DNA of 64,000 bases from Prostheceraeus crozeri (taxonomy: Eukaryota > Platyhelminthes > Polycladida > Euryleptidae), in contig CAJQUW010005310.1 in NCBI GenBank assembly GCA_907163375.1, forward strand, positions 248,001-312,000, written 5' to 3'. The translations under genes and the position numbers were made by a program. Position 1 is the first letter of the stretch; each line of letters opens with the position of its first letter. The notes beneath the pieces are model-generated. The model saw only the letters and a list, made by a program, of their open reading frames with translations. It was not told the origin of the DNA and searched no databases. Shown one piece after another: positions 8,643 through 50,141 of the stretch.

Positions 8643-8727
8643 TTAACCCTTATCAGTATATGTGGCTACATTTTGTAACTATTGATATTTCAAGGAAGTG
8701 CTGATATCTTAGTTTTGGAATAATGTG

Positions 8728-9037
8728 AGTAGGACAGTCTAGCCCCTTTCACCCGCATTTGACCTTCAGGACATGTGTACTTTTATCGGAGCACACGCCC
8801 ACGCATCTGAGCACGGAGCACACACCCACGCATCTGAGCACGGAGCACACACCCACGCATCAGAGCACGGGTAGCGAAGAGGACAGGAAACAGAGAACAC
8901 GCCCACGCATCAGAGCACGCATCGGCGCACTTGGGGGTAGAGCACGGAGCACCAATCGGAGCACGCGGCGCCGAGCACGTGTGATGAGTCACCGCACGGT
9001 ATATAAGGAAGGCGCTGCCAGAGAAAATCATTCTCAT
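8728..9037 (+). repeat. Polinton 1 left terminal inverted repeat
   Basis: 310 bp that match the reverse complement of 33192-33447 almost base for base. The left copy has three tandem 27-bp units of the form CGGAGCACAC(G/A)CCCACGCAT plus a CTGAGCA-like tail (about 8787-8868), whereas the right copy has one. This fully accounts for the 54-bp length difference. The repeat carries many GAGCAC motifs, a CCAAT box and a TATA box, so it doubles as a promoter. Confidence 0.95.
8935..9007 (+). promoter_or_regulatory. Left TIR promoter
   Basis: A canonical TATA box (TATATAAG, 9000-9007) lies 34 bases before the first ATG of the element at 9041. Upstream are a CCAAT box and repeated GAGCAC motifs (CGGAGCACCAATCGGAGCAC near 8944). 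The arrangement matches an RNA polymerase II core promoter. The same sequence is present inverted at the other end and, in part, near 16330. Confidence 0.8.
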
Positions 9038-10792: not shown

Positions 10793-10800
10793 TATATAAG
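10793..10800 (+). promoter_or_regulatory. TATA box before the exonuclease-like gene
   Basis: TATATAAG lies 32 bases before the ATG at 10832 and just after the end of the pX-like gene, so the 10832 gene has its own core promoter. No GAGCAC motif precedes it. Confidence 0.6.
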
Positions 10801-12582: not shown

Positions 12583-12817
12583 CTTGTATGTTCACGAGTG
12601 TTATGAAGGTGGAACATTTTCGACTTGGCTTTATAGTGTTGCAAATGCCCCATCCCCTGCTCCGAGCATTAGGCGTGCCCCATTCCATGCTCGGAGCACA
12701 GAACAGAGCATTGGCTGTGCCCCATTCCATGTCGGAGCACAGAACAGAGCATGTCATATCGGAGCACCTATCGATTGGAAAACTAGGTAAAATTAGAGAA
12801 ACGTTCAAGACACATAC
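12583..12817. promoter_or_regulatory. Divergent promoter with GAGCAC repeats
   Basis: The spacer between two divergent genes holds five or more GGAGCAC or GAGCAT strings (12660-12770), alternating with TGCCCCATTCCATG twice. These GAGCAC motifs otherwise occur in the terminal repeats and before the 508-aa gene. TATA on the minus strand is at 12629-12636; none is obvious for the plus gene. A shared regulator is inferred. Confidence 0.6.
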
Positions 12818-16324: not shown

Positions 16325-16404
16325 ACGGAGCACCAATCAGAGCACTTGTATGCGTGGGCGTCAACCAATGAGAAGAAATTTTCTCACGCTCAACTCTATA
16401 TAAA
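16325..16404 (+). promoter_or_regulatory. Promoter of the 508-aa gene, TIR-like
   Basis: CGGAGCACCAATCAGAGCAC (near 16328) nearly equals a block in both terminal repeats, and TGCGTGGGCGT is also shared. A TATA box TATATAAA (16397-16404) lies 31 bases before the ATG at 16435. It therefore looks like a third copy of the terminal promoter module inside the element. Confidence 0.75.
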
Positions 16405-19170: not shown

Positions 19171-19356
19171 TGGCAACGGCAGCCGCGCCAATTGCCTCCT
19201 CATTCTTATCACGTATCTTTGGGCGTTGTTGCGGCCAAGGCAACGCAGACGACAGCGCAGAGACACAGTACACCATCACGGCGAGCTTTAATTGTTGTTC
19301 CAACGGGAATACCGCCTATCTTCAACCCCCACGTCAATACCAAGCAGATTGTGTCG

Positions 19357-20445
19357 ATGGAGGAGGTGTTGCACAAGATTTATTACAATCCCAAACATCC
19401 CGCTGGCTACGGAAGCGTCAATGCACTTGCTGCTGCTTCACATTATTCAAAAACAAAAGTCAAACAATGGTTAATGCGTCAACCGACCTACACCCTTCAC
19501 AAATCTCGATTGCATCGTATTAAGCCCTTGCACCCGTATCGTGTACGCGGTCCGCAAATTCAATTTCAAGCGGATATTGTCGATTATCAAAAGTATGCAC
19601 AGCATAATCGTGGCTACAAGTATATTCTCATGGTGATGGACATCTTTACACGCAAAGCCTGGGCATTCCCTCTCAAGACCAAGAGTGCCAAAGAAGTGTC
19701 GGAGGTTTTAGAAGCCATATTCGCAACGATTCCCACCCCGCAACGACTACAAACGGATCAAGGCCGTGAATTTTATAACCGACCGGTGAAAGACGTCTTG
19801 GACAAGCACGCTATTGAATTGTTTTCCATCTACAGTCCCTATAAATGTGCTCATGTCGAACGATTGAACCGTACGGTCAAGAATAAATTGGAACGTATCT
19901 TTACAGCCACCAATCACAAGAATTGGGTGGATTATATCGCAGATGTCATGTATGCATACAATCACAGCACCCATTCATCCACAGGATTCACCCCGATGGA
20001 TGTGAATGCCTCCAATACCGAGGAAGTGAAACGAAACAATGCCAAACGTTTCCGACAAAACTATAAAAAGTTTGCAGTCCCGGGGAAGTCTATCCCTGTG
20101 GGAGCACGTGTACGTATTTCACGTGATAAAGGAACGTTTGGACGGGGGTATGAAGCGAATTGGTCGACGGAAGAGTTCATTGTCTCCAACATTCTCAAGA
20201 ACCCTCATGGTACCAAAATGTACAAGATCAAAGACTTGAGTGGAGAAGAGATCAAAGGATCCTTTTATGCTCAGGAATTACAAGTGATTCATCGGGAGGA
20301 AGAAGTCTATCAAGTGGACAAAGTGCTCAAGACCCGACGTCGGAATGGACGACCAGAATATTTTGTGCACTGGCAAGGTTATCCGGCCTCGATGAACTCA
20401 TGGGTGACAGACTTAGAACCTCTAGGTAATGTACGCCGCTATTGA
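19357..20445 (+). CDS. Retroviral-type integrase with chromodomain, ~362 aa
   Basis: A Polinton integrase. The zinc-like N-terminal region is degenerate (KIYYNPKHPAGYGS, then VKQWLMRQPTYTLHK). The DDE core contains QADIVDY (Asp ~73), LQTDQGREF (Asp ~134) and HVERLNR (Glu ~168); the last two are separated by 33 residues. An SH3-like region with GARVRISR follows. The C-terminus is a clear chromodomain, VDKVLKTRRRNG then YFVHWQGYP, which can target integration to modified chromatin. The start is uncertain: the frame is open from 19192 without ATG, while the ATG at 19170, which overlaps the previous stop, opens a different frame of 117 codons. A frameshift in the first ~180 bases is possible. Confidence 0.9.
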   Translation: MEEVLHKIYYNPKHPAGYGSVNALAAASHYSKTKVKQWLMRQPTYTLHKSRLHRIKPLHPYRVRGPQIQFQADIVDYQKYAQHNRGYKYILMVMDIFTRKAWAFPLKTKSAKEVSEVLEAIFATIPTPQRLQTDQGREFYNRPVKDVLDKHAIELFSIYSPYKCAHVERLNRTVKNKLERIFTATNHKNWVDYIADVMYAYNHSTHSSTGFTPMDVNASNTEEVKRNNAKRFRQNYKKFAVPGKSIPVGARVRISRDKGTFGRGYEANWSTEEFIVSNILKNPHGTKMYKIKDLSGEEIKGSFYAQELQVIHREEEVYQVDKVLKTRRRNGRPEYFVHWQGYPASMNSWVTDLEPLGNVRRY

Positions 20446-24327: not shown

Positions 24328-25254
24328 ATGCATGAGGAAAGGAATCACTTGTTGAGTAATGCTCAACCCAATTTGTTTCCTGAAAATAGAGCCAATCATT
24401 TCAAAAATCGCTTGGTTCCTTCCATCCCCATGGTCCATGGGGATCAATGGGAAGCCGGTATCTCCATCGTCAATTTCATCAATACCCTTCAGACAATACC
24501 TGTGGATGTCAGCTTTAGTGTGGGGACATTGAAGGATCATCCTGAGACGATTTCGACCGTCTATACGTCCTCTATCATTCCCATCAAAACGGATTCACCG
24601 CGAGGAGAGCAAGGCAAACAAGGCAAGCAAGGCAAACAGGGTGAGCAAGGCAAAAAAGACAAACAAGGCAAACAGGGAGAGCAAGGCAAACAAGACAAAC
24701 AAGGCAAACAGGGAGAGAAAGGCATGTTTACGCGCTTCAACATTCCACGCGGTATTTATTCGGAGAAGACGTTGATGCAGTGTTTGAATCAGAATCGACA
24801 GCATGGACACAATTTCCACTTTTCTATCACTACATTGGCGCCTCATGTCCATGTTGTCTCAGTGGTCGTACCCCCACACTACAGTATGAAACTCCATCCT
24901 TTGCTCAAAGACATTCTTGGGTTTAAAACAGACTTACTCACCTCCTCACAGCAAGCGAGTGCCCCTTTGAATTTGAATGCCTTTACCTACAATATTCTCC
25001 TGTATTGTAATATTGTAGGCTATCATTATGTAGGAGGTATGAAAACAAACTGTATGTGTGTGATTCCCTACACGGGGAAAGATTATGGAGACAGTATTCA
25101 TCATGAATTCCAGAATGTCACCTATCTCCCTGTGAAAAGTCAACATGTGCAAGATATTGAAATCAAACTCATGTCGGATGACGGTCATCCCATCCCTATG
25201 ACAGACGGACGGTCCTATGTAAAAATGCATCTCCGACATCGCGCAATTAAGTAA
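24328..25254 (+). CDS. Penton-like protein with collagen-like insert, 308 aa
   Basis: The N-terminus ([20 protein letters not shown]) and the C-terminal ~130 residues ([16 protein letters not shown], then [27 protein letters not shown]) are paralogous to the large protein just upstream. Between them, residues ~92-132 are about 13 Gly-x-y triplets made of GKQ, GEQ and GEK with two Gly-to-Asp breaks, a collagen-like stalk. The family is a single-jelly-roll vertex protein of Polinton-type capsids; the stalk implies a trimeric fibre. The gene is intact. It lies 24 bases after its paralogue, indicating tandem duplication. Confidence 0.75.
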
Positions 25255-27364: not shown

Positions 27365-28085
27365 ATGGTGAAGGAGCCCGAGAATCACGTTCCTCCTATC
27401 GCTTGGACATCTCTTTATCAACATCGTCTCATTAAAGCTCAGCGTTGGCTGAATGGGAGAATGGTTAAGCAACACGGCAATCGAAGGAATCATGCAGGGT
27501 ATGAATCAATTACAAGAGAAACATTTACTCAATGCCTGCATGTGCGAAGATGATTTTCTCTGTGCTATTCAGTGTAGTTGTCAAACGTTTGCTCATCGCC
27601 TCCTCCAATCTTCTTACGTTCCCTTCCAAGGTGTGTTTCCTGCTGATCTACTTCCTGCTCATTCCCCGGAATCAAAGACACTTATTGTCAATAGTGATCG
27701 CTCTCATCAACCTGGCAAGCATTGGTTGGCCTTTTATCAAAATGCGGATCAACGCGTATGCGAATTCTTTGACTCTTATGGACTCACTCCATCTCACTAT
27801 TCACATGTTACCGAATGGTTATCGACAACACCTTATCCTCTAAACTGTCGTCGTCCGCTGCGTATACAAGGACCTAAAGCCTATTGTGGTGCTTACTGTA
27901 TTTACTTTTTAAACCAACGCCCTTTTAACACGTCTATGGAAAAAACACTGACCTTCTTTCGAACATTGGATGCTTACGAGAAAGATCAAGAACTCATTCA
28001 AACCTACTTGTCCTTCAATGATAAAATTGTCTATTCCTATTTGTATTCTACATTATCCCATGTTTTGAAGTCAATAAAGAAATGA
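27365..28085 (+). CDS. Adenovirus-type maturation protease, likely frameshifted near start
   Basis: The main frame (from ATG 27453, 210 codons) has the adenain-type active site: GKHWLAFY (His ~90), CEFFDSYG (Asp ~107), IQGPKAYCGAYC (Gln ~139, Cys ~145). The N-terminal LSNTAIEGIM fits the family start but lies at a frame junction. An upstream ATG at 27365 opens another frame that runs into it near 27460, so a one-base indel may have separated the true start. The enzyme cleaves virion precursors such as core and pVI-like proteins during maturation. AATAAA overlaps the end (28073-28078). Confidence 0.85.
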
Positions 28086-28202
28086 ATCATGTCAATGATT
28101 GTATTTTTATTTCAATGGAATCCTTGAACTTTTTACAGAGGATAATACCACAAGGTTTTGTACATGAAACACTATACACTATTCACAGAGCTTTTCCATA
28201 CA
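28086..28202. terminator. Convergent 3'-end region with poly(A) signals
   Basis: The plus-strand gene train and the minus-strand set meet here. AATAAA on plus is at 28073-28078 and on minus at 28111-28106 (TTTATT on plus). This is the transcriptional midpoint between the two TIR promoters. Confidence 0.55.
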
Positions 28203-28697
28203 TCATGCACGATAAACAGTGACTGTTGAAGCAATGTCTTGATCACAAAGGGGACAAGATAACGTTTCCAAGGGTACATAACATGTAGAACACATAACAT
28301 TATGAGAACATGGTAAAAAGAGAAGGGATCGTTCCTGTTTAAAACATGTAACACAGTTCCGTTCACATAATAATTGAAATGTCTCTTCTTCTAATTTCTT
28401 TCTAAAGTCACTTTTATGGGGAGAGTTATCTGACACATCCATTGCAATTGTCACTTTTTTCACTCCAGTTCGCGCCAATGTCATTGTATTGCAGTGTGGT
28501 AGGGAGTCATCCTCTATCCACCTACGCTCCAAATGGTGATTCATAACATGCTCATCGAGATCCATGAGTCGATCCACTAATTCACCAGCAGTGATCGTTT
28601 CATTGAGATGTGTTACCGTTTCTATCGCTTTGAATGAATATCCCAGGTCTCTTGCGACAACCCACGATGTTGGGATACTAGTTGCTGTCCGATTCAT
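28203..28697 (-). CDS. UBA-RING protein, IAP-like, 164 aa
   Basis: The C-terminus is a C3HC4 RING finger: CVTCFKQERSLLFLPCSHNV, then MCSTCYVPLETLSCPLC and an aromatic end, TVTVYRA. This is the layout of IAP-family E3 ligases, where the RING is C-terminal. The N-terminal ~40 residues (ARDLGYSFKAIETV, then ITAGELVDRLMDLDE) look like a UBA ubiquitin-binding domain. No BIR domain is present. An inferred role is ubiquitin ligation to block host cell death or degrade a host factor. The ATG overlaps the 3' end of the TBP-like gene by 20 bases; an upstream in-frame Met at 28772 is disfavoured because it lies inside that gene. Confidence 0.75.
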   Translation of the reverse strand: MNRTATSIPTSWVVARDLGYSFKAIETVTHLNETITAGELVDRLMDLDEHVMNHHLERRWIEDDSLPHCNTMTLARTGVKKVTIAMDVSDNSPHKSDFRKKLEEETFQLLCERNCVTCFKQERSLLFLPCSHNVMCSTCYVPLETLSCPLCDQDIASTVTVYRA

Positions 28698-29253
28698 TGA
28701 GAGAATCTCCTTCGAGTAGGGATTTGAGAATGTCTTCCACCAACGATTCCGCTTCTGCAATCGATAAAACACCCGTCACAATCACACTTCCATTGGAAAA
28801 GAAGGAACAGTGTAATTTACCTTTGCGTATTAACGTTCCGGGAAACAGTTCGCGCTCGTTGAAAATCACTGATGACGATGGCAAGTGTTGAATGGTTTGC
28901 ATGCGGTCTTTTGTATAATTCCATTGACATTGAACGGTGCAGGATTTTGTGATTGGGTCGCTCACGTCCAATCCGTAAGGGGCGAGTAATTGGCGCATCT
29001 CTTTACAAATACGATCGTAGGTTTCCAGAGAGTGGTTGCCCAAAATTTGGATACACCCCCGTGGAAAAATCTGTACAGCAACCGAAGAGTTCCATTTCCA
29101 ATAGACTCGACAAGGGCGTGATGCTCGGTATGTGGCCAGAGGGAGTTGCGGTAACAATGTCTGCAGTGGTATTGCGGAGGATGCTCTGAGCTCCACCATG
29201 CGGTTGCAGATCCTTGACATTTTTGAGAGCGGGGTGTAGATACCCTTCTTCAT
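28678..29253 (-). CDS. TATA-binding-protein-like protein, 191 aa
   Basis: Two TBP-type half repeats are visible. Repeat 1 (~residues 16-95) contains VAVQIFPRGCIQILGN where cellular TBP has its LIFSSGKMVCTG strand. Repeat 2 (~100-180) contains ITKSCTV, then RELFPGTLIRKGKLHCSFFS, NGSVIVTGV and a closing helix. Spacing and order match the saddle fold of TBP, and the length equals the TBP core. Of the four DNA-intercalating Phe known from yeast TBP, three have Phe counterparts (63, 137, 152); the first appears to be Pro/Cys. It lies between PolB and the UBA-RING gene on the same strand. An element-specific promoter factor for its TATA-bearing genes is inferred. The 5' part overlaps the polymerase tail frame. 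Confidence 0.75.
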   Translation of the reverse strand: MKKGIYTPLSKMSRICNRMVELRASSAIPLQTLLPQLPLATYRASRPCRVYWKWNSSVAVQIFPRGCIQILGNHSLETYDRICKEMRQLLAPYGLDVSDPITKSCTVQCQWNYTKDRMQTIQHLPSSSVIFNERELFPGTLIRKGKLHCSFFSNGSVIVTGVLSIAEAESLVEDILKSLLEGDSLNESDSN

Positions 29254-29524
29254 ATAGGCGATGGTTACCGTAGGGAAGGCTCCGATTGGGTAAATACCAA
29301 CACCGCTTGTCCTCCCAGATACTTAGGGCCTTCTTCACTTGCGTCACCGTTCTCATCTCGTGGTGTTGGGATTGGAGGAGGGTTTGTGACACTGTGGTAA
29401 TGGAATGTTTTTCAAATGCGTCCACATAATTCTGATGTTTCACTTGTCGCTTCTTTGCTTGACACACCCCCTTCATGCGACAGTCGTGGATTTCTTCCTC
29501 ATTGCCTTTGAGGACAATGTAAGA
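29003..29524 (-). pseudogene. PolB C-terminal tail beyond the in-frame stop
   Basis: The frame of the polymerase continues for ~170 codons after the TAA. Its first ~75 residues have the usual Polinton polymerase ending: RMKGVCQAKKRQVKHQNYVD, TVTQVKKALSIWEDKRCWYL, LPYGNH. These conserved features show that the TAA is a nonsense change (or a readthrough site), not the natural end. The last ~80 codons overlap the TBP-like gene out of frame and are probably not coding in this frame. Confidence 0.75.
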
Positions 29525-32500
29525 TTACATCTTGGCACTCAAACATACGAACTCCTTCACCCTATCCCCCACACACTCATCCTTGAAACATCCCAAACGA
29601 TTTGCATTCTCGGTACGTCTCTCTGGATGACTCACGGGATAATTTGAGGTATCGAGAACACCTTTCGCCTCCGTATCAATAAAATTGGGGATGTTTTCAA
29701 ACGAACGCAGCACTTCTTCGCGTGTATACCGGCTGCGGACTTTGAGGAAGAAGGAGTCTGTGTCCCCACCAATGAGTTCCACTGAGGTGCACGTCTTGTT
29801 GGCTTTCCACTGGTCAAACAGCTTGTACATAATAATCTTGCTGTTGTCCAGGATGCATTGCCCGATATAAATGGGTTTGTTCAAGTCTACCTTGGTCTTG
29901 CGCACATTCACCACCACGGCTTTGTCGCTGATGTTGAAGAAAGATTGGCAGTAGGGATGACGTGTCCATTTGCTAAATAAATTCGGTGATCGAACAAAAT
30001 AGTGCTTTCCATATTTCCGCACATTCTCCATCGTCTTGCCGTAGAGTGCGTTCACCATCAACTTGTGGAGATTGCGGCGCATTTTCGTGGTTGCCTTGGC
30101 GCGTTCTTGTGTATGGTATTGAACATAGGGGCGAATATACGGTTCTTGGTTGAAGGAGATCCCGTAATGAACCTTGGTGATATGTAAGCCCTTCTCCACA
30201 TAATACTTGAGAGCAGCGATATGTACCACATACTCTTTGCGATTTTCGTGCGTCATCATTAACTTGTTGGCTGAGTGAAAGGGTCGGTTCCCGTTCAACT
30301 CTTGCCATAGTTCTTGCATATAGGGAGACATGTCCTCCCATTTCGCCGTCCCGCGGTAAGGAGCCAATGGTAAATCTTCCGTGGCATCTTGGACGTGTGG
30401 GGGATATTCCAAATCGACGCACAGTACATGACCCGTGGTGCCATTGACATTGTATCGTCTCACCCATTCGTCGTTGATGTCCACCAAGACCTCCGGTCGC
30501 ACCCAAGCAAAACAATCCTTCGGCAAAGGTCCCATCATGGCCGCACCGTATAAATTGTTCGCATCTATATAAAACAGGTGAGTACCTTCTTCTGCTTGCG
30601 CGCGGTGCTGATTCACAAATGTCATCCCTCCACGAATCCCTGCTTCAAACACGCGGTACATATCCACGTCATGCAATTTCTCCAACTTGACCTGTGTCTT
30701 TTTAAAGAAAAATGAATAGGTCAAGCCAGGTGTGCCGAAATAGTGGATGGGGTCCAATGCAGACACGTCGCGTATTTCACTTCGAAAGTGTTCGAAGATG
30801 TCTGCGAGCAAGGCTACATCCACTGTCAAATAATAGTGGATATAATCTTCAAACGTGCTGCACCCCGTCTCTGTCCACGCCTTTTGTGCCACAGCATACT
30901 CATCCTCTTCCAACTCCTTCTCACTCAAATCATTATAAAATGCTTCTTTCGGAGGCAATTGAGTCTCGTGGATACGATCCCAGCAGTCAAAATATGTATA
31001 GGGAAAATATCCTTTCCGAATAGATGTGTGATCGCAATTCGGATAGACGTTGCTCAATATGTGATTTGAGTGAGGAAAGTCACTGATGGTCGTTGACAAA
31101 TTGTTTAGAGAGTCTTTCAAAAACTGACATGAATCGATGAATCGGAGTTTATATATGGTATTGGATGGCATGGGAAGAAAGATGGTCACTCCCAACGTCT
31201 TGTCTCCTGACACATAAATGGGCTCGATCCTATACTTGTGATCCAACTTGGTAAACCCTTGTACAATCACCTGGTGACTGTCATATCCCTTCCAATTGTG
31301 AAACAAGATGTTCAATGTGGTCCGGGATTGACGTCGTCGCATGTTACATGCATTGCACAGGGTTTGCAAATATTTGCCCGTGATATGATCGTGGTCTCGC
31401 ACCTTTGTCGTAGGCCCATGCTTTTCACCTTGCTTCTGAGGTTTTACATCACATCCGCACATGTTACATTGAGCTGTCTGTTCATAGTCTCGCATATCAT
31501 CCTCCGTCAGCGTCATGTTATGCTTCGTCTCTTCCATGTGATTAAACATCGACATGCTCACCTGTCTGATGTGTGTAATAAAGGATGGAATGCACTCGTT
31601 CCCCTTATGGATCACCACCGATTCTTTCATGTCCAGCGCCGGATGCCACACCACATAGGATCCCACATACGCTGCCGTATGCTTCTTGGACACGGAATCA
31701 ATCATGCTCTCAATGTCTGCATACATCACAGCGAGGGGTTGAGTGGTTTTCGCGTGGTCGATAAATTCGTGCGGTTTCGTATCTTCCGGGGTCGTTTCCA
31801 TCTGAAAAAATCCTCCATCGCATTTGGCTTGATGTTCCAGACGTTCTTTGTGCGCCATGTCCTTTGTCTTTCCATACTTTATCCCCTTCTCGTAGAAATT
31901 AAATCGTAAACTACATAACTCGCATGTTTCAAATCGTTTCACTTGCGTTTGGCTCATGTTCCGATACCACATGCGAGCACATTTCTGAAAATCCGTCACG
32001 GGAAGAAAATGTCCAGACTGATCCTCCATATCGTACCGCGTCACCATCACCAGATGAACGATGCGTGTGTTCTCCTTCACAGTTTGACGGACCGGGTATA
32101 ATTGGCCCACAAATCCTTTACTGTCATGTACGTGGATACGAAGAATGACATTGTTCTTCTTTTCAAACTCCTGAATATCCCGTGTATTCATCAACCCCTC
32201 TGACGTCATCATGGAAAAGTCTAGATGATAATATTGGTTCAAATTCAACATGCGCACTGTAGGAAGCTCATTCTGATACGTGTTATAGGTTTTCTTGGTG
32301 CGGGAATCAACACGTCGAGGAATGCGATTGCCTTGGTAGGCAAGTGCATAGAGGACACTGTCTTGAAAACAATGTGATGTATACGTGTTGCGTCGAAACA
32401 CACATATACCTTTGCAGAGCTTGATATCTCGGTGAATAGGAATCGGTGCGCCCATGCGAAAATTAGGGAAGGAACTTGTTTGAACTAGTAACTCCAACAC

Positions 32501-33184
32501 TTCCTTCACCGCAAATCCTGATCCATCTTCTTGAAAGTCTTCAATAAATTCTTCAAACTTTGACACCATGTCACGGAACCATGTATCAAAGTTACGTGCT
32601 TGGACGCCTTCGTGAATGTATGAGGGTGTGGTGATGTCTCTCACTTCCTCTTCGCCCGTCGACATATTCATCTTGCCAAACCTGAGTCTCATACTCACAA
32701 ACACTTTCACATCCTCGTGGGGGTGTTGTTGCACAATGACTCGATACAAGTCCGCATACATTGAATTCAAATATACCTTCCATTCATTCGTGGCTTGATG
32801 AGGGGTAAATCGATAATTATATCCGCGACCGTCCATGATACGTTCTTCTTCCACGGCTGCACCGCCCTCTTGCATAAACTCAAACAGGTAAGGACACAAA
32901 TGTTCATCCCATCCTTCCGCTTCAGCATTCACTGCTACATCACAGTAGCGACACCGTCCTACACACGCATGCTTATGGTACGCCTCCACGTCGAAACTTC
33001 CGTCGCAATCCAAACACAGCAAGTCATTGTCATCACCATAATTAAACGCGCGGCAATCGTGTTCGTCTCCATACCATTTACAGCATGTCCAACAATAGTT
33101 GCGACCCGTCTCCGCTGCTCCATGAGCAATACAGTCTTGAAAGCGAGAGAAGGACTGACGGCAGAATTCACACGCGTACTGCAT
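29525..33184 (-). CDS. Protein-primed DNA polymerase B, 1219 codons to premature stop
   Basis: Starts MQYACEFCRQSF about 40 bases after the right TIR TATA box. Residues 1-105 are a multi-zinc module (VGRCRYC, WDEHLCPYL). Residues ~260-400 resemble the cysteine-protease/OTU-like segment seen in Polinton polymerases (TSHCFQDSVLYAL, then SGHFLPV). Exo I is MYADIESMI (~490). An HNH/endonuclease VII-like zinc insert follows, CNMCGCD then RDHDHITGKY and CNACNMR (~575-620). Exo II is HNWKGYDSH and Exo III YLTVDVALLADIF. Pol motif A is YIDANNLYG (~890), motif B KLMVNALYGKTMENV (~1065), motif C GGDTDSFF (~1155). All catalytic Asp are present. The ORF ends at TAA (29525-29527) right after LSAKM, but the family's C-terminal tail continues in frame beyond it. 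Confidence 0.95.
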   Translation of the reverse strand: MQYACEFCRQSFSRFQDCIAHGAAETGRNYCWTCCKWYGDEHDCRAFNYGDDNDLLCLDCDGSFDVEAYHKHACVGRCRYCDVAVNAEAEGWDEHLCPYLFEFMQEGGAAVEEERIMDGRGYNYRFTPHQATNEWKVYLNSMYADLYRVIVQQHPHEDVKVFVSMRLRFGKMNMSTGEEEVRDITTPSYIHEGVQARNFDTWFRDMVSKFEEFIEDFQEDGSGFAVKEVLELLVQTSSFPNFRMGAPIPIHRDIKLCKGICVFRRNTYTSHCFQDSVLYALAYQGNRIPRRVDSRTKKTYNTYQNELPTVRMLNLNQYYHLDFSMMTSEGLMNTRDIQEFEKKNNVILRIHVHDSKGFVGQLYPVRQTVKENTRIVHLVMVTRYDMEDQSGHFLPVTDFQKCARMWYRNMSQTQVKRFETCELCSLRFNFYEKGIKYGKTKDMAHKERLEHQAKCDGGFFQMETTPEDTKPHEFIDHAKTTQPLAVMYADIESMIDSVSKKHTAAYVGSYVVWHPALDMKESVVIHKGNECIPSFITHIRQVSMSMFNHMEETKHNMTLTEDDMRDYEQTAQCNMCGCDVKPQKQGEKHGPTTKVRDHDHITGKYLQTLCNACNMRRRQSRTTLNILFHNWKGYDSHQVIVQGFTKLDHKYRIEPIYVSGDKTLGVTIFLPMPSNTIYKLRFIDSCQFLKDSLNNLSTTISDFPHSNHILSNVYPNCDHTSIRKGYFPYTYFDCWDRIHETQLPPKEAFYNDLSEKELEEDEYAVAQKAWTETGCSTFEDYIHYYLTVDVALLADIFEHFRSEIRDVSALDPIHYFGTPGLTYSFFFKKTQVKLEKLHDVDMYRVFEAGIRGGMTFVNQHRAQAEEGTHLFYIDANNLYGAAMMGPLPKDCFAWVRPEVLVDINDEWVRRYNVNGTTGHVLCVDLEYPPHVQDATEDLPLAPYRGTAKWEDMSPYMQELWQELNGNRPFHSANKLMMTHENRKEYVVHIAALKYYVEKGLHITKVHYGISFNQEPYIRPYVQYHTQERAKATTKMRRNLHKLMVNALYGKTMENVRKYGKHYFVRSPNLFSKWTRHPYCQSFFNISDKAVVVNVRKTKVDLNKPIYIGQCILDNSKIIMYKLFDQWKANKTCTSVELIGGDTDSFFLKVRSRYTREEVLRSFENIPNFIDTEAKGVLDTSNYPVSHPERRTENANRLGCFKDECVGDRVKEFVCLSAKM

Positions 33185-33191
33185 GGTTAGA

Positions 33192-33447
33192 ATGAGAATG
33201 AATTTCTCTGGCAGCGCCTTCCTTATATACCGTGCGGTGACTCATCACACGTGCTCGGCGCCGCGTGCTCCGATTGGTGCTCCGTGCTCTACCCCCAAGT
33301 GCGCCGATGCGTGCTCTGATGCGTGGGCGTGTGCTCTGTTTCCTGTCCTCTTCGCTACCCGTGCTCTGATGCGTGGGTGTGTGCTCCGATAAAAGTACAC
33401 ATGTCCTGAAGGTCAAATGCGGGTGAAAGGGGCTAGACTTTCCTACT
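33192..33447 (-). repeat. Polinton 1 right terminal inverted repeat
   Basis: 256 bp, the inverted counterpart of 8728-9037 with one 27-bp minisatellite unit instead of three. Its TATA box reads toward the polymerase gene on the minus strand. The outer end is followed directly by the AATGTG target duplication at 33448-33453. Confidence 0.95.
33222..33300 (-). promoter_or_regulatory. Right TIR promoter driving PolB
   Basis: Inverted copy of the left promoter. TATATAAG occupies 33229-33222 on the minus strand, about 40 bases before the polymerase ATG at 33184, with the same CCAAT and GAGCAC elements upstream. It would start the PolB, TBP-like and UBA-RING gene set. Confidence 0.8.
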
Positions 33448-33453
33448 AATGTG

Positions 33454-36280: not shown

Positions 36281-36910
36281 AGTAATGGGAAAAAGACCGA
36301 TCCAGACCAAGACAAATTCAGAAAAATTTGTATTTTTAAAAACGACATAAGTTCATGAATTTGAACCCTTTTTCTGGTTTTTAAGATCTAAATTCATAAA
36401 TTTAGGCGTTTTTAAAAATACCCAATTTTTAAAATTTTTCAAAATCTCAAATTGAGATTAAGATCATTTTTTCTCTCTTGCTCAAATCATGACCGTTCCA
36501 GGACACCGAAAAAATCATAAAAGTTAAGAATCTTAAATTTGAGATTAAGATCATTTTTTACTTTGAAATTATGACCGGTCCAGGACACCGAAAATCATAA
36601 AAGTTAAGAAACTCAAAATTTGAGAATTACAATTTTCACCCCCCCTTAAAATCATGACCGTTCCAAGCCACAACATCAGAAAAATTGGTAATTTTAAAAA
36701 CGTCTAAATTCATGAATTTCATCCATTTTTCAGGTTTTTAAAATATGAGATAACTAAAATTATGTGACTAAAAATATTTCTTTAAAAATGGAAGAAACAA
36801 AAGTGGAAGAAACTGCAAGAATATATCCTTCGTTATCCCAATTAAACACAAGTGAAATGGTTCACAATTATTATTAAGATTAGAGCATTATGATAAATTA
36901 AGAAGATGCA
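36281..36910 (+). repeat. Polinton 2 left terminal inverted repeat
   Basis: About 630 bp matching the reverse complement of 52490-53116. Inside are repeated blocks ACCG(T/G)TCCAGGACACCG and AATTTGAGAATT-type strings. The inner ~120 bp copy the 5' coding end of the gene at 52151-52694 (ATGGAAGAAACAAAAGTGGA at 36788), with a deletion of the KMN-repeat part. That copy is only a gene fragment. Confidence 0.85.
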
Positions 36911-37673
36911 ATTATTACTTAGACATTCTTCGTTATTGTATTCTCAACATTATTTAAAGTACTAATTGTGAAGATCATTGTAACTCATAAACTCAACATT
37001 ATTCAATGAACCCGTACACTGGCTGATAATTGAAGAGAGACAGAGATTGAAGAGAGAGAGAGAGAGAGAGATTGAAGAGAGAGATATATTTATTGTTCTA
37101 GCAACGGAAAACATCTAACAGCTTTCCCTTAAAATTATCGTGGAATCTCTTGTCATTTCAACTTACCCATCGGTAAATTTTTGACATTTCAATTTACCCC
37201 TACGTAAATTATTTTCAGAATCAGTTCTCAATATCTGTTTTCAAAATCTGTTTTTCAAATTCACTTTTAGAAATCCATTTGCAAGATTCATTTAACGTTT
37301 GCTAAACACATACGGGTAGTAAAGTACTTCCCATTGTGAAGTCATAAATAGATTAAGCAAATAAGAGTGCATTGACAATAAAAGTAAAATGACAATGAAA
37401 TTCTTCTTGTGAACTCAGAACACATAAACGCCGATATGCGCGTTAGTTGTTATAGCAATTTTAAACAATCACTTTAACGATGAAACATATTAACATATGA
37501 AGTTCATGAAGAAAATGGACATATGTAAAACAATGCAGATTAGAATAATTATAATATAATCATTTCAAAATCGAATAAGTAGTAAGGAAAGTCATCATTA
37601 TGGAACAGTTTTAAATCAATACCCCCCCTTCTGACTTCTAGGGGTCCCTATAAGAAATTTTTTTAATTATAAA
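36911..37673. other. Noncoding left arm of Polinton 2 with (GA)n
   Basis: AT-rich DNA without a gene. A GA microsatellite with two interspersed ATTGAAGAGAGA units lies at 37032-37085. Short A/T-rich direct repeats (TTTACCC(A/C)TC and TTTACCCCT near 37165-37190) follow. No ORF is supported. Confidence 0.55.
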
Positions 37674-38147
37674 ATGACTAGCATTACCGAGTTCTTAAAA
37701 TTATATGGAACACAAACAACTACAAATTTTGATCTAAAGAAAATCGCTAATCAATTGGGAATAAAGAATTTTCATGTTCTAATGAGAGACGAATTACATT
37801 TAATCAAAAATAAGCCAACAGGAACCTTCAGTTCCCGGAACAATGTTCCAACTGTAAATTTCGTAACCAATCTCCACACGTCTGATCAAAAAGGAGTACA
37901 TTGGTCAGCAGGTATCTTTAATAAAAATCGAGATAATTACTATTTTGACTCCTACGGACTTCCACCCACAAATGAAGTAAGAGAATTACTTTGAAATGGA
38001 ATTTATAATACATTTCAAATTCAAAAACCAGGAACTTCTTACTGTGGGCAATTATGTCTTTATGTTTTATTCAAATTACAGGAAGGATTACCATTTCTAG
38101 ATATTATGTTAGAATTGAACAAGGGAATTTCATTCCCGAAACGTTAG
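37674..38147 (+). pseudogene. Adenovirus-type protease of Polinton 2, one in-frame TGA
   Basis: One frame of 158 codons containing GVHWSAGIF (catalytic His), YYFDSYGLPP (Asp) and, after a TGA at 37992-37994, QKPGTSYCGQLC (Gln and Cys). The N-terminus reads MTSITEFLKLYG. The order and spacing fit the adenain-like virion protease. The single stop falls between the Asp and Gln motifs and would remove the active Cys. It is shorter than the Polinton 1 protease. Confidence 0.8.
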
Positions 38148-38215
38148 TTCCAATAATAATGATATTGATAATTTAAAATCAAGCGAAGCTAGCTAGCTAA
38201 AGCGCCACCTAAAGG

Positions 38216-39481
38216 TTAAAGCTCACTTTGTTGTAACTCATTTTGATAAAATCGGCCTCTGATATCTTCATCATCTAAATCTTTGATTTTGTAAGTAATA
38301 GGATAAGTTTGATTTATTTTAAAAACTTCAAATATCTCTTTAGTCCAATAACCAACAAAGCCTTTTTCAAATTTATTCTTATACTTAAATATTCGTATCC
38401 TATCTCCAATCTTAAATTTCGGCTTAAGTTTCTGTAAATTCGGATTACTCTCATTCGAATAATTATTTTCGAATATTTTCTTTCGTATTAAATCAGGATA
38501 GTCAGAAGCATTCTTTCGAGTTTCTTCAATACCTGAATGAATCTTATTGTTATACTCTTCTACAACTCCTGGTAATATCTTCAACCATTTCTGATTTCCT
38601 TGCTCAGTAAATTTCTTAGAAATTTTATTTTTTAATCTATTGAATCGCTCAATTGCTACAGCCTTTCCTGCATTTTCAGTTGAATAAATAGTTTCAAATA
38701 GTGCCTGAACATTTCGATTGTAAAACTCAGACCCTTTATCAACGAATAGCTTCTTTGGCTTTCTATTAGTTTCTTTAAAGATTTCTTCAAACGCATATTT
38801 AACTGACAGACCACTTTTATTTTTTAAAGGCTTCACCCAAGCGTATCGTATAAATAAATCTATAACGGTAAATGCGTATTTATAATCTTTTTCTTTCGGC
38901 ATATGAATAAGATCAGCACTCCAAATATCATCTTTATTAAATACTTTTACTTTCAATAAATATTTAGGCCTTCTGTATTCTTTATGAATTTCAGACGCGT
39001 ATGCTTCATTTGCTGACGGATCAATACCCTGATCCAACAATATTTTAGCTTGTAAAGCTTTCTTAACAAACATTCTTTCAATTCTTTCTCTAAATGTAGG
39101 ATTTTGAATACTATCCAATTCTTGAATCATTTTCCTATCAGCTACATGACGAGAACTTAGATCATGATTTCGATAAGCTAAATCATGTCTGTAAGCTGCG
39201 GCATCTACTCTATTTATTGGTTCTTCACCTGGTTTTGGATTATTATTCTCATCTAGTCTTATATCTAATCGAGTTCCTGGACCGGTATATGAATGATCAG
39301 GAAGATGTTTTTCTTTTGAATATTTACTCCAAATAAATCCAGGAAAGTTTTCGAATGTTTTTTGTATGTCACCTTCAATATGCTGACAATTTGAGGTTTT
39401 ATGTACTTTTAAGAGATAATTCAATAAATCTAAATTAGAAATTTTTAATTTAATTAAATTATCGGAATTTGTAGAATTCAT
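38216..39481 (-). CDS. Phospholipase A2 domain fused to integrase, 421 aa
   Basis: Intact minus-strand frame with two domains. Residues ~60-145 are a parvovirus-VP1-type phospholipase A2: calcium loop YTGPGTRLD (65-73), EPINRVDAAAYRHDLAYRNH with the HD-x-x-Y active site (99-103), and ADRKMIQEL. Residues ~170-420 are a retroviral-type integrase: WSADLIHM (Asp 190), LFVDKGSEF (Asp 248), VAIERFNRLK (Glu 278), then an SH3-like end, KFKIGDRIRIFKYK. The usual N-terminal zinc region of Polinton integrase is missing and there is no chromodomain. The PLA2 is normally a separate virion protein that breaches endosomes. This may be a genuine fusion, or two genes merged by a deletion. Confidence 0.85.
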   Translation of the reverse strand: MNSTNSDNLIKLKISNLDLLNYLLKVHKTSNCQHIEGDIQKTFENFPGFIWSKYSKEKHLPDHSYTGPGTRLDIRLDENNNPKPGEEPINRVDAAAYRHDLAYRNHDLSSRHVADRKMIQELDSIQNPTFRERIERMFVKKALQAKILLDQGIDPSANEAYASEIHKEYRRPKYLLKVKVFNKDDIWSADLIHMPKEKDYKYAFTVIDLFIRYAWVKPLKNKSGLSVKYAFEEIFKETNRKPKKLFVDKGSEFYNRNVQALFETIYSTENAGKAVAIERFNRLKNKISKKFTEQGNQKWLKILPGVVEEYNNKIHSGIEETRKNASDYPDLIRKKIFENNYSNESNPNLQKLKPKFKIGDRIRIFKYKNKFEKGFVGYWTKEIFEVFKINQTYPITYKIKDLDDEDIRGRFYQNELQQSEL

Positions 39482-39509
39482 TTTTAAAGATAAAATAAAA
39501 TATATGTTT

Positions 39510-39640
39510 TACCGAATAGAACCTTGTTCAGAGGCCTTAGCCGATCGGACCAAAGGTCCTCAGGTTACTAACCTATAGAACCTTGTTCAGAGGCTTTAGC
39601 CGATCGGACCAAAGGTCCTGAGGTTATTACCTAATCATAC
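39510..39640. repeat. Two 67-bp repeats with paired hairpins
   Basis: Two copies of a unit reading TAGAACCTTGTTCAGAGGC, then TTAGCCGATC, GGACCAAAGGTCC and CAGGTTACTAACC. GGACC-AAA-GGTCC is a perfect stem-loop, and GGTTA-C-TAACC forms a second in the first copy. Further copies lie at 40292-40322 and, inverted, 42256-42290, always between genes. They may mark RNA 3' ends or regulatory structures. Confidence 0.65.
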
Positions 39641-39688
39641 TAGGACTTAGATATATTCCAGAACCATCTTTTCTTTCTTTAATTTCAA

Positions 39689-39976
39689 TTAAATCATCAA
39701 CATTTTAAGAACTCGGTTTTCTTCATCATCTAAATTTAATTTACTAATGAAATTATCTACTACTCCCTCACCTCTTGCCGCTTTCTCTAACTCTCGATTA
39801 TGTCGTTTTTGTTCTTCTAATGCTGCCTTCTCCGATTTATTTTTATTTACTGCTTGGACAATACCAGCTGTCCCACCTGCAATACTTCCTGCTGCTGCTA
39901 TACCTCCCATTATTAGTGGAATTAATGGGAGAATTCCACCATTCTTTTCTTCTTGTAATTGAATATTCTCTATCAT
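39689..39976 (-). CDS. pX-like membrane-active core protein, 95 aa
   Basis: Contains KNGGILPLIPLIMGGIAAAG followed by SIAGGTAGIVQAVN, the GGILP-plus-hydrophobic Gly/Ala pattern of adenovirus pX-like proteins and of the Polinton 1 protein at 10487. A charged helix follows (KSEKAALEEQKRHNRELEKA). It is intact. Probably a minor virion protein cleaved near GG by the protease; the cleavage is an inference. Confidence 0.65.
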   Translation of the reverse strand: MIENIQLQEEKNGGILPLIPLIMGGIAAAGSIAGGTAGIVQAVNKNKSEKAALEEQKRHNRELEKAARGEGVVDNFISKLNLDDEENRVLKMLMI

Positions 39977-40291
39977 TGGTTTACTTATGTAATTAATGTT
40001 TTATTAATAGTAATAGTTTTAGGGGTATTTTTGTAAATGATGTTACGTAGTTTTATTTCAACCGTTATATTATTATTATTACTTTTCGCTTGCGTCATTT
40101 TTAATAAAAAATTTTAAGTTACGAAAAATTTTAATCTATTCTAGTTATGAAAAATTTTAATCTATTCTAGTTATGAAAAATTTTAATCTAAGAATTTTTT
40201 TAATCTATTCTAGTTATGAAAAATTTTTAAGTTAAGAATTTTTAATCTATTCTAGTTATGAAAAATTTTAAGTTACAAAAAAATAATTTTA
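39977..40291. repeat. AT-rich tandem repeat, ~28-bp unit
   Basis: The unit GAAAAATTTTAATCTATTCTAGTTAT recurs about five times between 40120 and 40275 with slippage variants. The rest of the gap is plain AT-rich sequence. No gene is seen. Confidence 0.65.
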
Positions 40292-40322
40292 ATCGGACCA
40301 AAGGTCCTCAGGTTACTAACCG
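40292..40322. repeat. Single copy of the paired-hairpin motif
   Basis: CGGACCAAAGGTCC followed by CAGGTTACTAACCG. It is the same motif as at 39540-39630 and sits at the 3' end of the capsid gene, which is on the minus strand. Confidence 0.55.
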
Positions 40323-41648
40323 ATCCTAGCCATCTTTCCATTAAGAATTTCAATAGAATATTCTACATCTTCTAGCAATAAACCATAAGCCATCAATGAT
40401 GTTGTGGAATTTTTCTTTTCAATATTAATTGTTACATCACAACCAGTCTTGATAATATCTTCAGATTGCGCACTTAAATCGAAACAGAAAACAGGATATA
40501 AATGTCTCCAATCTCCAGGAGTTAATTGTGGTTCAACTCCAAATTATATACAAAGATTTCTATAAGCATCATATCCTTCCATAAATGATTATTGGTATCA
40601 TCGAATCTTAGTGGATCAATTGGATATCGGGTTTGACTTAAAGCAACTTGTAAACTTCGAATTGTATCAATATGAAAAGGATTATTGTTCTTATCAAACT
40701 TGGAGAATTATTTCTTTGAAATGTCAGTAATAAATATCTTGGAGTATTCGAAGTTCTAGTAAAATGTCAGTCAAATCGTTGCTCTGAAAAAGTTACTGAA
40801 CTAGCCGTACGCTTTAGAAAATTTAATGGAATTGGTTTGTTAGTATTTAATCTTTTTGAAATAGCTGTTTCAACCTCTAAACTAGGAGTAATATGCTTAA
40901 TCCACTATTCAAGTCTATCAATTTTTAAATATGCTTTTTTTCGAGTCTTGCCAAAAAAGATTAATTCATTATTTGCTGTACGATGAATTATTAACTTAAA
41001 TTTTAATTGATATGATATTTTTTCATAATCTAAATATCGGAATAATGGAGACAATGACCAATTTACTGTCTGTTTACTTTTCTTGTTAAATTCACGTCTT
41101 TCTTTATATGCACTATTGTTTGTTTTATTTAAATGATTTGCAATATTTTCTACATCTTTCGCAATTCCTGCTGCATCTGTTACAGCGTGAGTTAAATCAT
41201 CAACAATTATACCATCATAAGTATCAGGAAACCAACCTTCGACTTCATGCTTTTTATTATTTTCATCAATTGTTACAAATCTAAGCATTGTATCAATTAC
41301 ACCTGGAGAATCACTTATTGTTTGTATATTTTGAGTTGCAACATCTAAACGCATTTGTGTAAATAATCTTGGAAAGAAATTATTCTCTAATGCAATATTA
41401 TCGGTATCTGGTAATGGTGTTGTAAAATTGGCATCACTATAGAAAGAATAATCACAGTGTAAAAAGGAATCAGGTAAATATAAATAACTTTGCTGATTAT
41501 CAACTTCAAAAATTAAATCTCCTCCAGTATTTACTCTACTGGAAGATCCGGGATTCATAGCAACTCTTATATAGTCATTCTTTTTTTGATTGTAACTGAC
41601 GAACGGAGGATCGTCTAATCTAAATTTATTTTCGATGATAGAAGACAT
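40316..41648 (-). pseudogene. Major capsid protein of Polinton 2, broken
   Basis: The first 247 codons (41648-40905) are intact: RLDDPPFVSYNQKKNDYI, GDLIFEVDNQQSYLYLPDSF, a LENNFFPRLFTQMRLDVATQ segment matching the LHSLF-x-x-V-x-(V/I)-x-LN region of the family, and FKLIIHRTANNELI. The remainder to 40316 is spread over frames with several stops, but its end (HLYPVFCFDLSAQ, then VTINIEKKNS) keeps the expected capsid C-terminal pattern. It is a double-jelly-roll hexon-like capsid protein by family. The total of ~440 codons is normal length. Confidence 0.75.
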
Positions 41649-41649
41649 T

Positions 41650-41757
41650 TTTAAAAAAATAATTTGACTTTATTTTACTAAAAAAATTTTACTAAAAAAA
41701 TTTTACTAAAAACTTCTACTAAAAAAAATTTAACTAAAAAATTGTACTAAAATATAA
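41650..41757. repeat. ACTAAAAAAATTTT tandem repeat
   Basis: A short unit close to AAAATTTTACTAAAA repeats about seven times in the spacer upstream of the capsid gene. It is a slippage product in AT-rich DNA. Confidence 0.6.
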
Positions 41758-41759
41758 TT

Positions 41760-42212
41760 TTAGAATTTTGCGAGACCATTACCTCTTATTTCTTCAATTA
41801 AACGTTCTAAGGCTACGCCTGATTTCTTCTCCTGTTTACTATCAGGTACTATGTTAGCAATTTTGTTTTTTGTTTCCTCTGAAAGTTTTTGTAATTTTTT
41901 TAGTTCTTCTGAATCATTCTTAAGTTTACGAATAGTTTCTAGTTGTTTTAATTCGTTTTGAGACTTAACAGCATTTGATATTGCACTAGCTGTACTACCT
42001 ATAGCAGCTGCTCCTTTTGCAGCAGATGTAATCAAATATTTATTATTTTTAATTAAGTTAACGATACTTCCAATACCAGAAAAGATGCCAGCCCCTTATT
42101 TTTGAATTGTTTCTACACTGTCATAATGGTAAACAGATTTCATAGATGGTTCATGAGCAATTTTTTTATTTGAAGCAAAATGCTTAAGATTGTATTGATA
42201 AATTATAGGCAT
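41760..42212 (-). pseudogene. Virion minor protein, pVI-like, one in-frame TAA
   Basis: The ATG at 42212 begins MPIIYQYNLKHF. The frame is interrupted only by TAA at 42098-42096, then continues with GAGIFSGIGSIVNLIKNNKY and ITSAAKGAAAIGSTASAISN, followed by a charged coiled region ending GNGLAKF. A GAG(I)FS-GIG amphipathic/hydrophobic start after a protease-cleavable linker recalls adenovirus pVI. Placed directly before the capsid gene in transcription order. The assignment is by character and context. Confidence 0.55.
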
Positions 42213-42255
42213 TTTTTAGGAATAAATTTGACTTCTGGGAAAAAAATATTTACGA

Positions 42256-42290
42256 TTGGTTAGTAACCTGAGGACCTGAGATCCGATTAA
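42256..42290. repeat. Inverted copy of the paired-hairpin motif
   Basis: GGTTAGTAACCTGAGGACC followed by TGAGATCCGATTA, the reverse orientation of the 39540 motif, at the 3' end of the fibre-like gene. Confidence 0.5.
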
Positions 42291-43172
42291 GATTTACGTT
42301 TGTGAATGGACAACAACTTCGTGATAACTTTATTAATTTTCCGTTGCACGTTATCTATTGCGTCAAGCAGCGTGTGATGTACTTTTATTTCTTTTCTATT
42401 AACTTGCATTTTCTGCTGATTAATTTTCAACGCCGTTTTAAGACCATTCAATTGAACTTTAAGAACATCTAAACGATTTTTAACAGCATCTAACTGTTCT
42501 TTATTTCCTTTAAAGTTTTCTTGTAAATTTTTCTTTAATTCATTTTCTAAACTGATTTTAAGAGTTTTCATTTCATCAACTTTTTGATTAAGTGAGTTTA
42601 CTTCATTTATTATTCTATTCATCTTTTTCATTTGTTGAGTAATTTTAGAACTTAATTCATCAACACTGTTTTGGAATGTAGTTTGTAACTGCTTTAATTT
42701 GTTTAATTCTTTCAGGTAGTTTTTCTATTTCATCTTCTAATTGTTCTTTCAATAGTTGTATCTGATGTTTATTTTTAATGACTGCAGATTTTAACTTTAT
42801 AGAAAGTAATATTAAAATTTTTGATTGTTCTGAAATATTTTTAAAAAGTTTTGCTATATCTGCTTCTAGCTCTCTATCCTTTTCATCAAGTTTTAATAAT
42901 TTTTCGTTTAATGATTTGTCATTAAGTCTAAGCAACTTAAATTCATTCATCAGTGGAACCAAAACATCGTTTATATATTTTTCTTTTAAGTCATTGATTT
43001 GTGTATCAACATATTGTTTATTTGTTAACTCTGTATTTTGTTGCGGAAGAATAGAAGGATGCAATGGACCAGATAAAACGTCTCCAGTTTTCATGATATA
43101 ATTTTCTATTTCTATTTCTAATTCACGATTATTCGGGATATATGCACCTCCACCAACATTTGGTAACATCAT
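42287..43172 (-). pseudogene. Fibre-like coiled-coil protein, frameshifted
   Basis: The ATG at 43172 begins MMLPNVGGGAYIPNN. Residues ~27-60 read YIMKTGDVLSGPLHP, then NTELTNKQYVDTQI. This is the bacteriophage tail-fibre style motif in which a short M-x-G-(D/P)-L unit is followed by TKQYVD. A long coiled coil follows through two frames (43172-42660, then 42631-42287), ending LLSIHKRKS. One frameshift near 42650 splits it. A trimeric receptor-binding or spike-like fibre is inferred; Polinton 1 uses a collagen-like penton instead. Confidence 0.6.
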
Positions 43173-43249
43173 TTTTTAACAATAAAAAAGTAATTTTTTT
43201 ATATAATGAGAAAAAAAAATAAAATTTTTTCTAATAAAAATAAAAAAAT

Positions 43250-44518
43250 GGAAAAAGCAAATTTGAAAAAATTATATTCGCCCGTATCATCCTGTTCTTC
43301 TTATTCGACGAGATCATCGGGATTTGAAAATTAATATTTTGATAATAATAATAATCCATGTATAGATGTTAATATTTTATTTGAATTACAAGCCAAAATA
43401 TTTAGAGAACAGACTTCCATAGAAACTAACTATTGTATTTTCCCGAGGGATCCATTTATTAAATTTATGGATATTGTAAGTAAGTATAATTATCTTGCTT
43501 ATGTAGAATTAAATAAAGAAAATATGGTTATAATTGGTCACAATTATGTTTATGGATTTATTAGAGCAGTGTTACCAAGTAGTGATACAGATTGGATTGA
43601 AACTAAAACTATCAATTATATCAACATTAGAGAATTAGTAAAAAAATTAAAATCTTTCTCAAAAGAAAAAATTAGATTATTTGTTGATGAGTTTAATCAA
43701 TATAATATTCATATTGAAAGTAAAAAACATAACGAAGAATTATTATGCCGAGTTTATTATAGAGATACAATTTATAAAAAAGAAACATCAGAAATGCCAC
43801 AAAGATATGATGATGATACTTATATAGGGTTATATTCAAATTTAAATATTAATTTATTAAAATCTTATATAAATGGATTAGCTCAACAAGAGAAAATTTA
43901 TATGTGGACAACACCTTATTAATTATTAATGACCATAATCATAATAATTTTAAAGAATCTGATAATAATAATTTTAAAGAATCTTATAATAATAATTTTA
44001 AAGAATCTTATAATAATAATGATGATGATAATATAGATGATGATAATATAGATGATGATTCTGAAACATCTGAAAAAGGTGTAAATGGTAACAAAGATTA
44101 TAAAAATATTAGTAATTATTAAAATTTAAGTGAAGAAAAACTTATATTTCAACATGATATTAATACTACAGATAATCAAAATTTATCTAAATTTCATTTT
44201 CTTACAATTGAAAATAATAATGATGGAATAGTTGAAGATACTGTTAGACAACTATGTGTCCGGTCTACAAAATTTAAATTAGGATTTACATCTAATCAAT
44301 TTAAAATTTTATCATCTTTAATAAAAACTAAAAATGATTCAGATTATGATGGTGTTATTAAATTTTCCAAAAGAGATCAAAGACCAATATTTTTCTCTAT
44401 TATATTATTATCAAATAATAAATATAATTTGGAATTAGATATTCCTATCAGGGAATGGCATCCTATACCAAAAAGTGTAATTTATGATGTTGAAGAATCA
44501 ATTTATCATGATGATTAA
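43250..44518 (+). pseudogene. Unrecognised two-part protein, possibly sliding-clamp-like
   Basis: The ATG at 43250 starts a Ser-rich leader, stopped at 43334. The following frames contain two segments of similar size: 43380-43920 (NYLAYVELNKENMVIIGHNY, then NIRELVKKLKSF) and 44150-44518 (VRQLCVRSTKFKLGFTSNQF, then ILSSLI). A low-complexity Asn/Asp linker made of three 30-bp repeats (43945-44030) joins them. Two comparable beta-rich halves joined by a linker recall PCNA, but no diagnostic motif is present, so this is only a guess. It is encoded upstream of PolB on the same strand. Confidence 0.3.
43935..44035 (+). repeat. 30-bp repeat in coding DNA
   Basis: Three copies of AATAATTTTAAAGAATCT plus a (G/T)ATAATAATAA tail, followed by GATGATGATAATATA units. 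They encode an Asn/Lys/Glu/Ser linker and likely expanded by slippage. Confidence 0.7.
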
Positions 44519-49218: not shown

Positions 49219-49304
49219 TTTTCTAATTTCTAAGATAGACAAATTTGATATAAATATAAAATAAAAAAATAAAATATTATAACACTATATTTGTATATTT
49301 TTTA

Positions 49305-50065: not shown

Positions 50066-50141
50066 TTTTTAATAAAAAGATTTTATTTTTGTTTTAAAAG
50101 AAGAAGAAGAACATTAAACTTCTCTAGCTTCGCGTGGGAGT

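Follow-up and report, generated by a model that had tools for sequence, protein, structure and literature searches.

A TBP-like gene beside the DNA polymerase gene of a flatworm Polinton

A Polinton carrying a TBP-family gene

We analysed a 64,000-nucleotide stretch of the genome of the polyclad flatworm Prostheceraeus crozeri (contig CAJQUW010005310.1, positions 248,001 to 312,000), hereafter the window, in whose numbering all positions are given. It holds a Polinton of 24,720 bp, a size set by the ends of its terminal inverted repeats, which start with AGTAGGA (left, 8728..9037, plus strand; right, 33192..33447, minus strand), and by the flanking 6-bp target-site duplication AATGTG (8722..8727 and 33448..33453). 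Within it, at 28678..29253 on the minus strand, an open reading frame (ORF) encodes a protein of 191 amino acids related to the TATA-binding protein (TBP), with which eukaryotes and archaea locate the starts of genes. That a TBP-family gene resides in this Polinton we regard as nearly certain.

The element has the features of the Polinton/Maverick group: long terminal repeats with a 6-bp duplication, a retroviral-type (rve) integrase with a chromodomain (19192..20445, plus; PF00665 45.3 bits, PF00385 32.8 bits) and a family B DNA polymerase (PolB; 29003..33184, minus, with one in-frame stop), an enzyme that in Polintons is protein-primed. The polymerase itself reached no Pfam cut-off; it was identified by tblastn and by its alignment with the PolB of a second Polinton in the window (element 2, described below), which matches PF03175. 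The tblastn comparison with the PolB of the metagenomic Polinton L200 gave 27.6% identity over 1135 columns, the similarity stopping at 29261, and the L200 polymerase terminates at most five residues from the matching point. The sequence-only reading had placed the TBP-like gene inside a Polinton, adjoining PolB; the terminal repeats, the duplication, the integrase and the end of PolB homology at 29261 all agree with this. An assembly chimera was rejected, the terminal repeats, target-site duplication, PolB strand and spacing being coherent.

The TBP profile PF00352 matches the 191-residue protein with 41.5 bits (E 1.2e-10, cut-off 22.9) in two stretches, and two TBP half repeats follow each other in the chain, at about residues 14-93 and 101-181. 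The three motifs from which two TBP-type half repeats had been proposed are indeed present. Seven TBP models of NCBIfam match as well, the best alignment covering residues 15-179 and the best score being 31.9 bits; none of the seven reaches its curated subfamily or equivalog cut-off (181-347 bits). Our own profile was built from 94 TBPs, kept from 98 after removal of one fragment and three near-duplicates, with the TBP-like protein itself excluded. It matched one of the 452 stop-to-stop ORFs of at least 50 amino acids in the window, the one at 28678-29253; no second TBP was found among them, element 2 included. The protein scored 29.6 bits, compared with 8.7 for the top of 5000 composition shuffles. 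A PHROGs search gave no match for this ORF.

The two halves contribute unequally. Scored separately, the second reaches 20.4 bits (top of 5000 shuffles 7.8) and the first 10.0 bits with E 0.11 (top of 5000 shuffles 4.5), while residues 1-84 by themselves give 5.7 bits with E 2.2 (top shuffle 4.2); on these scores the first repeat is the weak part of the protein. One could suppose that only the second repeat is real and that what looks like the first repeat (29003-29253) belongs to the end of PolB, which has an open frame there too: in this overlap the codon scores of the two frames are close and PolB is slightly ahead (-0.190 vs -0.282 for the TBP frame). We consider this very improbable, for the profile alignment spans both halves, the first half lies above all 5000 of its shuffles, and PolB homology has already stopped at 29261, next to the end of the metagenomic polymerase. 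The TBP frame is open throughout and has the top codon score of the six frames, both over the whole ORF (-0.148; next -0.353) and outside the PolB overlap (-0.045; next -0.358).

Fold, contact residues and relatives of the protein

An AlphaFold2 (AF2) model of the protein shows the two-fold saddle of TBP over about 170 residues, a fold that is partly imposed because the input alignment is made up of TBPs (pLDDT without an alignment, 43.3). Its fold matches in BFVD include several labelled TBP or TFIID. The saddle that the sequence-only reading had expected of a TBP was recovered in the model and in fold searches. A PF00352 score above the cut-off, two tandem half repeats in one chain and the modelled two-fold saddle together place the protein in the TBP family.

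We then compared the positions at which yeast TBP contacts DNA or TFIIB. At six of the 22 DNA-contact positions the residue is that of yeast TBP, at two of 11 in the first half and four of 11 in the second: three of the four intercalating Phe, one of the two minor-groove Asn, one Thr and one Arg. The absent intercalating Phe is that of the first stirrup. The three TFIIB-contact positions all match yeast TBP. The third is a Leu, shared with yeast and with four of 12 viral rows, and 79 of 80 archaeal TBPs have Q there. Eight columns are invariant in a 60-row alignment and the protein keeps every one; they include four glycines that lie outside the stirrup, as well as the FPG of the second stirrup.

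A canonical TATA-binding TBP carries four Phe, two Asn and a conserved contact surface; having three, one and six of 22 positions respectively, the protein is not filed as one. Judged by its residues, the second half looks able to contact DNA and TFIIB, and TATA specificity is doubtful.

Searches for relatives returned little. In IMG/VR, the TBP-like protein alone found no relative; a profile led by yeast TBP found 16 TBP loci, and one led by the TBP-like protein a single locus (L202, on the same contig as L008) with 23% identity. First searches of IMG/VR with PolB and the integrase found no relatives either. A motif scan yielded 103 loci, one with long PolB similarity (L178, later L200) and four with short matches only, and none of the 7384 ORFs from these loci matched the TBP profile at E <= 1. 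Another scan for PolB returned L200 and L201, neither with a TBP; in L200, no TBP was detected in 16.1 of 17.4 kb. Our own profile detected none in element 2, and a phages collection gave no match. The syntenic homologues beside PolB that had been anticipated in other Polintons were therefore not found in IMG/VR, element 2 or L200.

The sequence-only reading knew of no routine report of a TBP in Polintons, and our literature search likewise found none in the sources it covered, which left out most subscription journals. No mention of TATA or TBP was met in PMC11071296, PMC11071308 or PMC10120064. The nearest report among the sources covered concerns Cymbomonas, where elements of putative mirusvirus origin sporadically contain TATA-binding proteins (PMC10675990).

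Promoters and neighbouring genes

Five TATA boxes stand 38-53 nt from ORF starts of the element. The box TATATAAG occurs in both terminal repeats, in the left one at 9000..9007 (plus), 41 nt before the ATG at 9041, and in the right one at 33222..33229 (minus), 45 nt before the PolB ATG and with TCAT 28 nt downstream. It recurs at 10793..10800 (plus), 39 nt before the ORF at 10832, with TCAT 29 nt downstream. A TATATAAA box at 16397..16404 (plus) lies 38 nt before the ORF at 16435 (TCAT 28 nt downstream), and a TATAAAGC box at 12628..12635 (minus) 53 nt before the ORF at 12582 (TCAT 29 nt downstream).

The element holds 29 TATAWA sites, overlapping registers and opposite-strand readings of one box being counted separately. 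Six of them fall 25-70 nt before a listed ORF start (9000, 10793, 16397, 33229 and 12635, plus 16399, which overlaps 16397); the list consists of 20 starts picked from longer lists of ORFs, with 9041 added after its TATA box had been noticed. At 28 or 29 nt past the first T, TCAT is present in each of the five boxes and absent from the remaining 24 TATAWA sites. Because two boxes are copies of one terminal repeat, these amount to four independent TATA-initiator cases. Overall counts say less than position: TATAWAWR is in modest excess (12 vs 5.6 +/- 2.5 expected), and TATATAA is not significantly enriched (7 vs 2.3 expected, with a maximum of 11 in 200 random sequences). The strong TATA boxes of the sequence-only reading, those in the terminal repeats included, are thus real, with numbers that are only modestly raised. 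Their arrangement looks like that of an ordinary RNA polymerase II (Pol II) promoter, which host TBP could serve.

Two further motifs are concentrated mostly in the terminal repeats: GGAGCAC, with 13 copies vs 1.9 expected and no more than 7 in any of 200 random sequences, and GCGTGGG, with 8 copies vs 1.25 expected and no more than 5 in any of the 200. In the repeats both are neighbours of the TATA box, and TGAGTCA lies upstream; GGAGCAC reappears close to two further TATA promoters, at 12693-12761 and 16327. GCGTGGG presumably resembles EGR sites and TGAGTCA AP-1 sites; TGASTCA is not enriched across the element (12 vs 10.6 expected).

Between 18194 and 27453, no TATAWA lies 25-70 nt before a listed ORF start. 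This invites comparison with herpesviruses, in which a viral TBP works with host Pol II (PMC7498053): the TBP-like protein might read a TATT-type late promoter before the structural genes, and TATTTAA does occur seven times, always on the plus strand, vs 3.6 +/- 1.9 expected. We think this unlikely. Most of the seven sites lie within reading frames; four of them have their closest listed start at a distance of 14, 73, 77 and 126 nt, the rest much farther off, with no common spacing. The excess is small, and as late promoters of the herpesvirus kind these sites found no support; the idea survives as a weak rival, and a distinct late-gene role of the protein is possible but unsupported.

Directly downstream of the TBP-like ORF, a RING-finger ORF (28203..28697, minus; PF13920) begins at an ATG, 28697, that overlaps the end of the TBP-like ORF, itself starting at the ATG at 29253; read from the GTG at 28772, the RING ORF matches PF13920 with 41.2 bits (E 1.4e-10). 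Upstream of this PolB-TBP-RING block the sole TATA-initiator pair is that of the right terminal repeat, and the TATAWA sites inside PolB (31155, 31153 and 30571) lack a TCAT at canonical spacing. On the minus strand, 27900-33184 contains a single AATAAA/ATTAAA poly(A) signal, at 28106..28111, past the RING ORF. With one TATA-initiator pair and one poly(A) signal, a single PolB-TBP-RING transcription unit is the simplest reading; its second and third ORFs might be translated through splicing or through internal initiation.

The RING neighbour, the kept TFIIB-contact residues and the many lost DNA contacts would also suit an antagonist, a protein that lowers host transcription by binding TFIIB or by competing with host TBP, perhaps with the RING ORF as partner. 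An antagonist that did nothing but bind TFIIB would have no need of intercalating Phe, three of which are kept out of four, and we assign this alternative a low probability.

The other genes of the element include an adenovirus-type (C5) protease-like ORF (27453..28085, plus; PF00770 21.0 bits, just below the cut-off of 21.3) and a collagen-repeat ORF (24328..25254, plus; PF01391 27.6 bits, cut-off 27.2). Inspection by eye showed a Walker-A-like GKSTF and, at 25956, a possible capsid ORF, both in interrupted frames and without profile match. At the left end, the ORF 9549-9863 shares 48% identity over 105 columns with the N-terminus of PolB, which is zinc-finger-like, so that the two ends of the element encode related N-terminal domains.

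Element 2 spans 36281-53116 and has a perfect 6-bp target-site duplication, GGTACA; for most of its length the GC content is about 24-31%. It encodes a PolB (PF03175) and an integrase ORF in which a phospholipase A2-like domain (PF08398, 34.3 bits) precedes rve. Beside its end, the ORF 53112-53681 appears by eye fucolectin/F5-8C-like, and element 2 may lie within a host gene. At 4735-7832, apparent remnants of a PiggyBac-type transposase and of a Penelope-like reverse transcriptase were noted by eye, which points to an animal host. Rfam and tRNA scans of the window gave no match.

A possible promoter factor of the element

We now propose that the gene encodes a Polinton-encoded TBP-family transcription factor, and we lean towards a present or past role of this protein as a promoter factor for the element. 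The TATA-initiator promoter of the right repeat, usable by host TBP and Pol II, would drive the minus-strand PolB-TBP-RING unit. The saddle of the TBP-like protein would then bend promoter DNA, chiefly through its better-kept second repeat, while the kept second stirrup would contact host TFIIB. In this way the protein would bring host Pol II to promoters of the element, with a recognition preference probably unlike that of cellular TBP; one possible class of targets is the gene cluster at 18-28 kb, where no TATA box turned up for the listed ORF starts. This best explanation is built on homology, modelled fold, gene position, TATA-initiator promoters and residue conservation, from which we infer expression, binding of DNA and TFIIB, and target promoters.

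The sequence-only reading had gone further, with an element-encoded factor recognizing the element's own TATA boxes and giving it transcriptional autonomy. What stands is a TBP-family protein encoded beside PolB in a Polinton with true-looking TATA-initiator promoters. Recognition of its own TATA boxes, and with it autonomy, is more doubtful: six of 22 contacts are kept, one intercalating Phe is gone, and the promoters look suited to host TBP.

Several observations weigh against a promoter factor. The protein is 14-25% identical to the TBPs of the comparison alignment (A3), and its end branch in the tree amounts to 10 changes per site; the tree was unusable for placing the gene, which may have been captured from the host, a virus or an archaeon. 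The 22 DNA-contact positions, six of which it keeps, are nearly all retained by the 80 archaeal TBPs. Its first repeat is weak when scored by itself, its modelled fold is in part imposed, and a PolB control stretch has a higher codon score (+0.061) than its frame. No Polinton relative was found in IMG/VR, nor was a late-promoter motif of the herpesvirus kind supported in the element. Finally, this copy of the Polinton is decaying, not intact: the stop at 29525-29527 breaks an otherwise long PolB frame, and the putative packaging-ATPase and capsid frames, assigned by eye, are interrupted.

Divergence this extreme, the loss of most DNA contacts and the broken genes around it would suit a TBP relative that was captured and on which selection has ceased, a passenger or fossil without a role in transcription. 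Set against this, the ORF is open over its full length and both repeats align with TBP, all eight invariant columns are kept, and the TBP frame has the top codon score over the whole ORF. At such divergence an unselected gene would be expected to lose a recognizable fold, unless selection ended recently, and we hold a mere fossil to be rather unlikely. A promoter factor, active now or in the past, is the reading we retain.

With the TBP of archaea and eukaryotes, the Polinton protein shares the two-repeat saddle, the FPG stirrup and TFIIB contacts of the second repeat, and three of the four intercalating Phe; it differs in its 14-25% identity, its six of 22 DNA contacts, the missing first-stirrup Phe and its location in a mobile element. 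TBP-family genes in the genomes of eukaryotic DNA viruses have precedents: a TBP gene cluster is reported in 59% of mirusvirus genomes (PMC10132985), and some large DNA viruses, such as Megavirus, have RNA polymerase subunits of their own (PMC11464507). Unlike these large genomes, the Polinton measures 24.7 kb, and none of its 23 ORFs searched with Pfam matched an RNA polymerase family.

Also comparable are the herpesvirus viral TBPs, namely ORF24 of Kaposi's sarcoma-associated herpesvirus (KSHV), BcRF1 of Epstein-Barr virus and betaherpesvirus UL87/U58. As in those, a diverged viral TBP would work with host Pol II. Here it is a bare TBP core of 191 amino acids with no supported TATT pattern: 13 residues precede the first strand of the model, leaving no N-terminal Pol II-binding domain of the ORF24 type. 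KSHV ORF24 is described as having such an extra domain and as reading TATT late promoters (PMC7498053).

Among Polintons, the element is conventional in its terminal repeats, 6-bp duplication, rve integrase, PolB and C5-protease-like ORF, and it differs in carrying a TBP, which was detected neither in element 2 nor in the searched 16.1 of 17.4 kb of L200. Polintons are held to stand close to the root of several groups of eukaryotic DNA viruses, and to our knowledge transcription control in such small elements has received little study.

A Polinton with a TBP would demonstrate that an element of 25 kb can possess its own promoter-recognition factor. It would also offer a small test system for viral TBPs, for which the element itself supplies candidate promoters, and would bear on the origin of TBP genes in larger viruses. 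More tentatively, and with less confidence than in the promoter role as such, we suggest an animal Polinton lineage with a promoter-recognition factor of its own, in which a diverged TBP, made early along with the DNA polymerase, brings host Pol II to a separate set of element promoters; if true, transcription in a 25-kb element follows a timed programme comparable to those of herpesviruses and giant viruses. Altogether, the presence of its own diverged TBP relative suggests that this Polinton may help to switch on its own genes.
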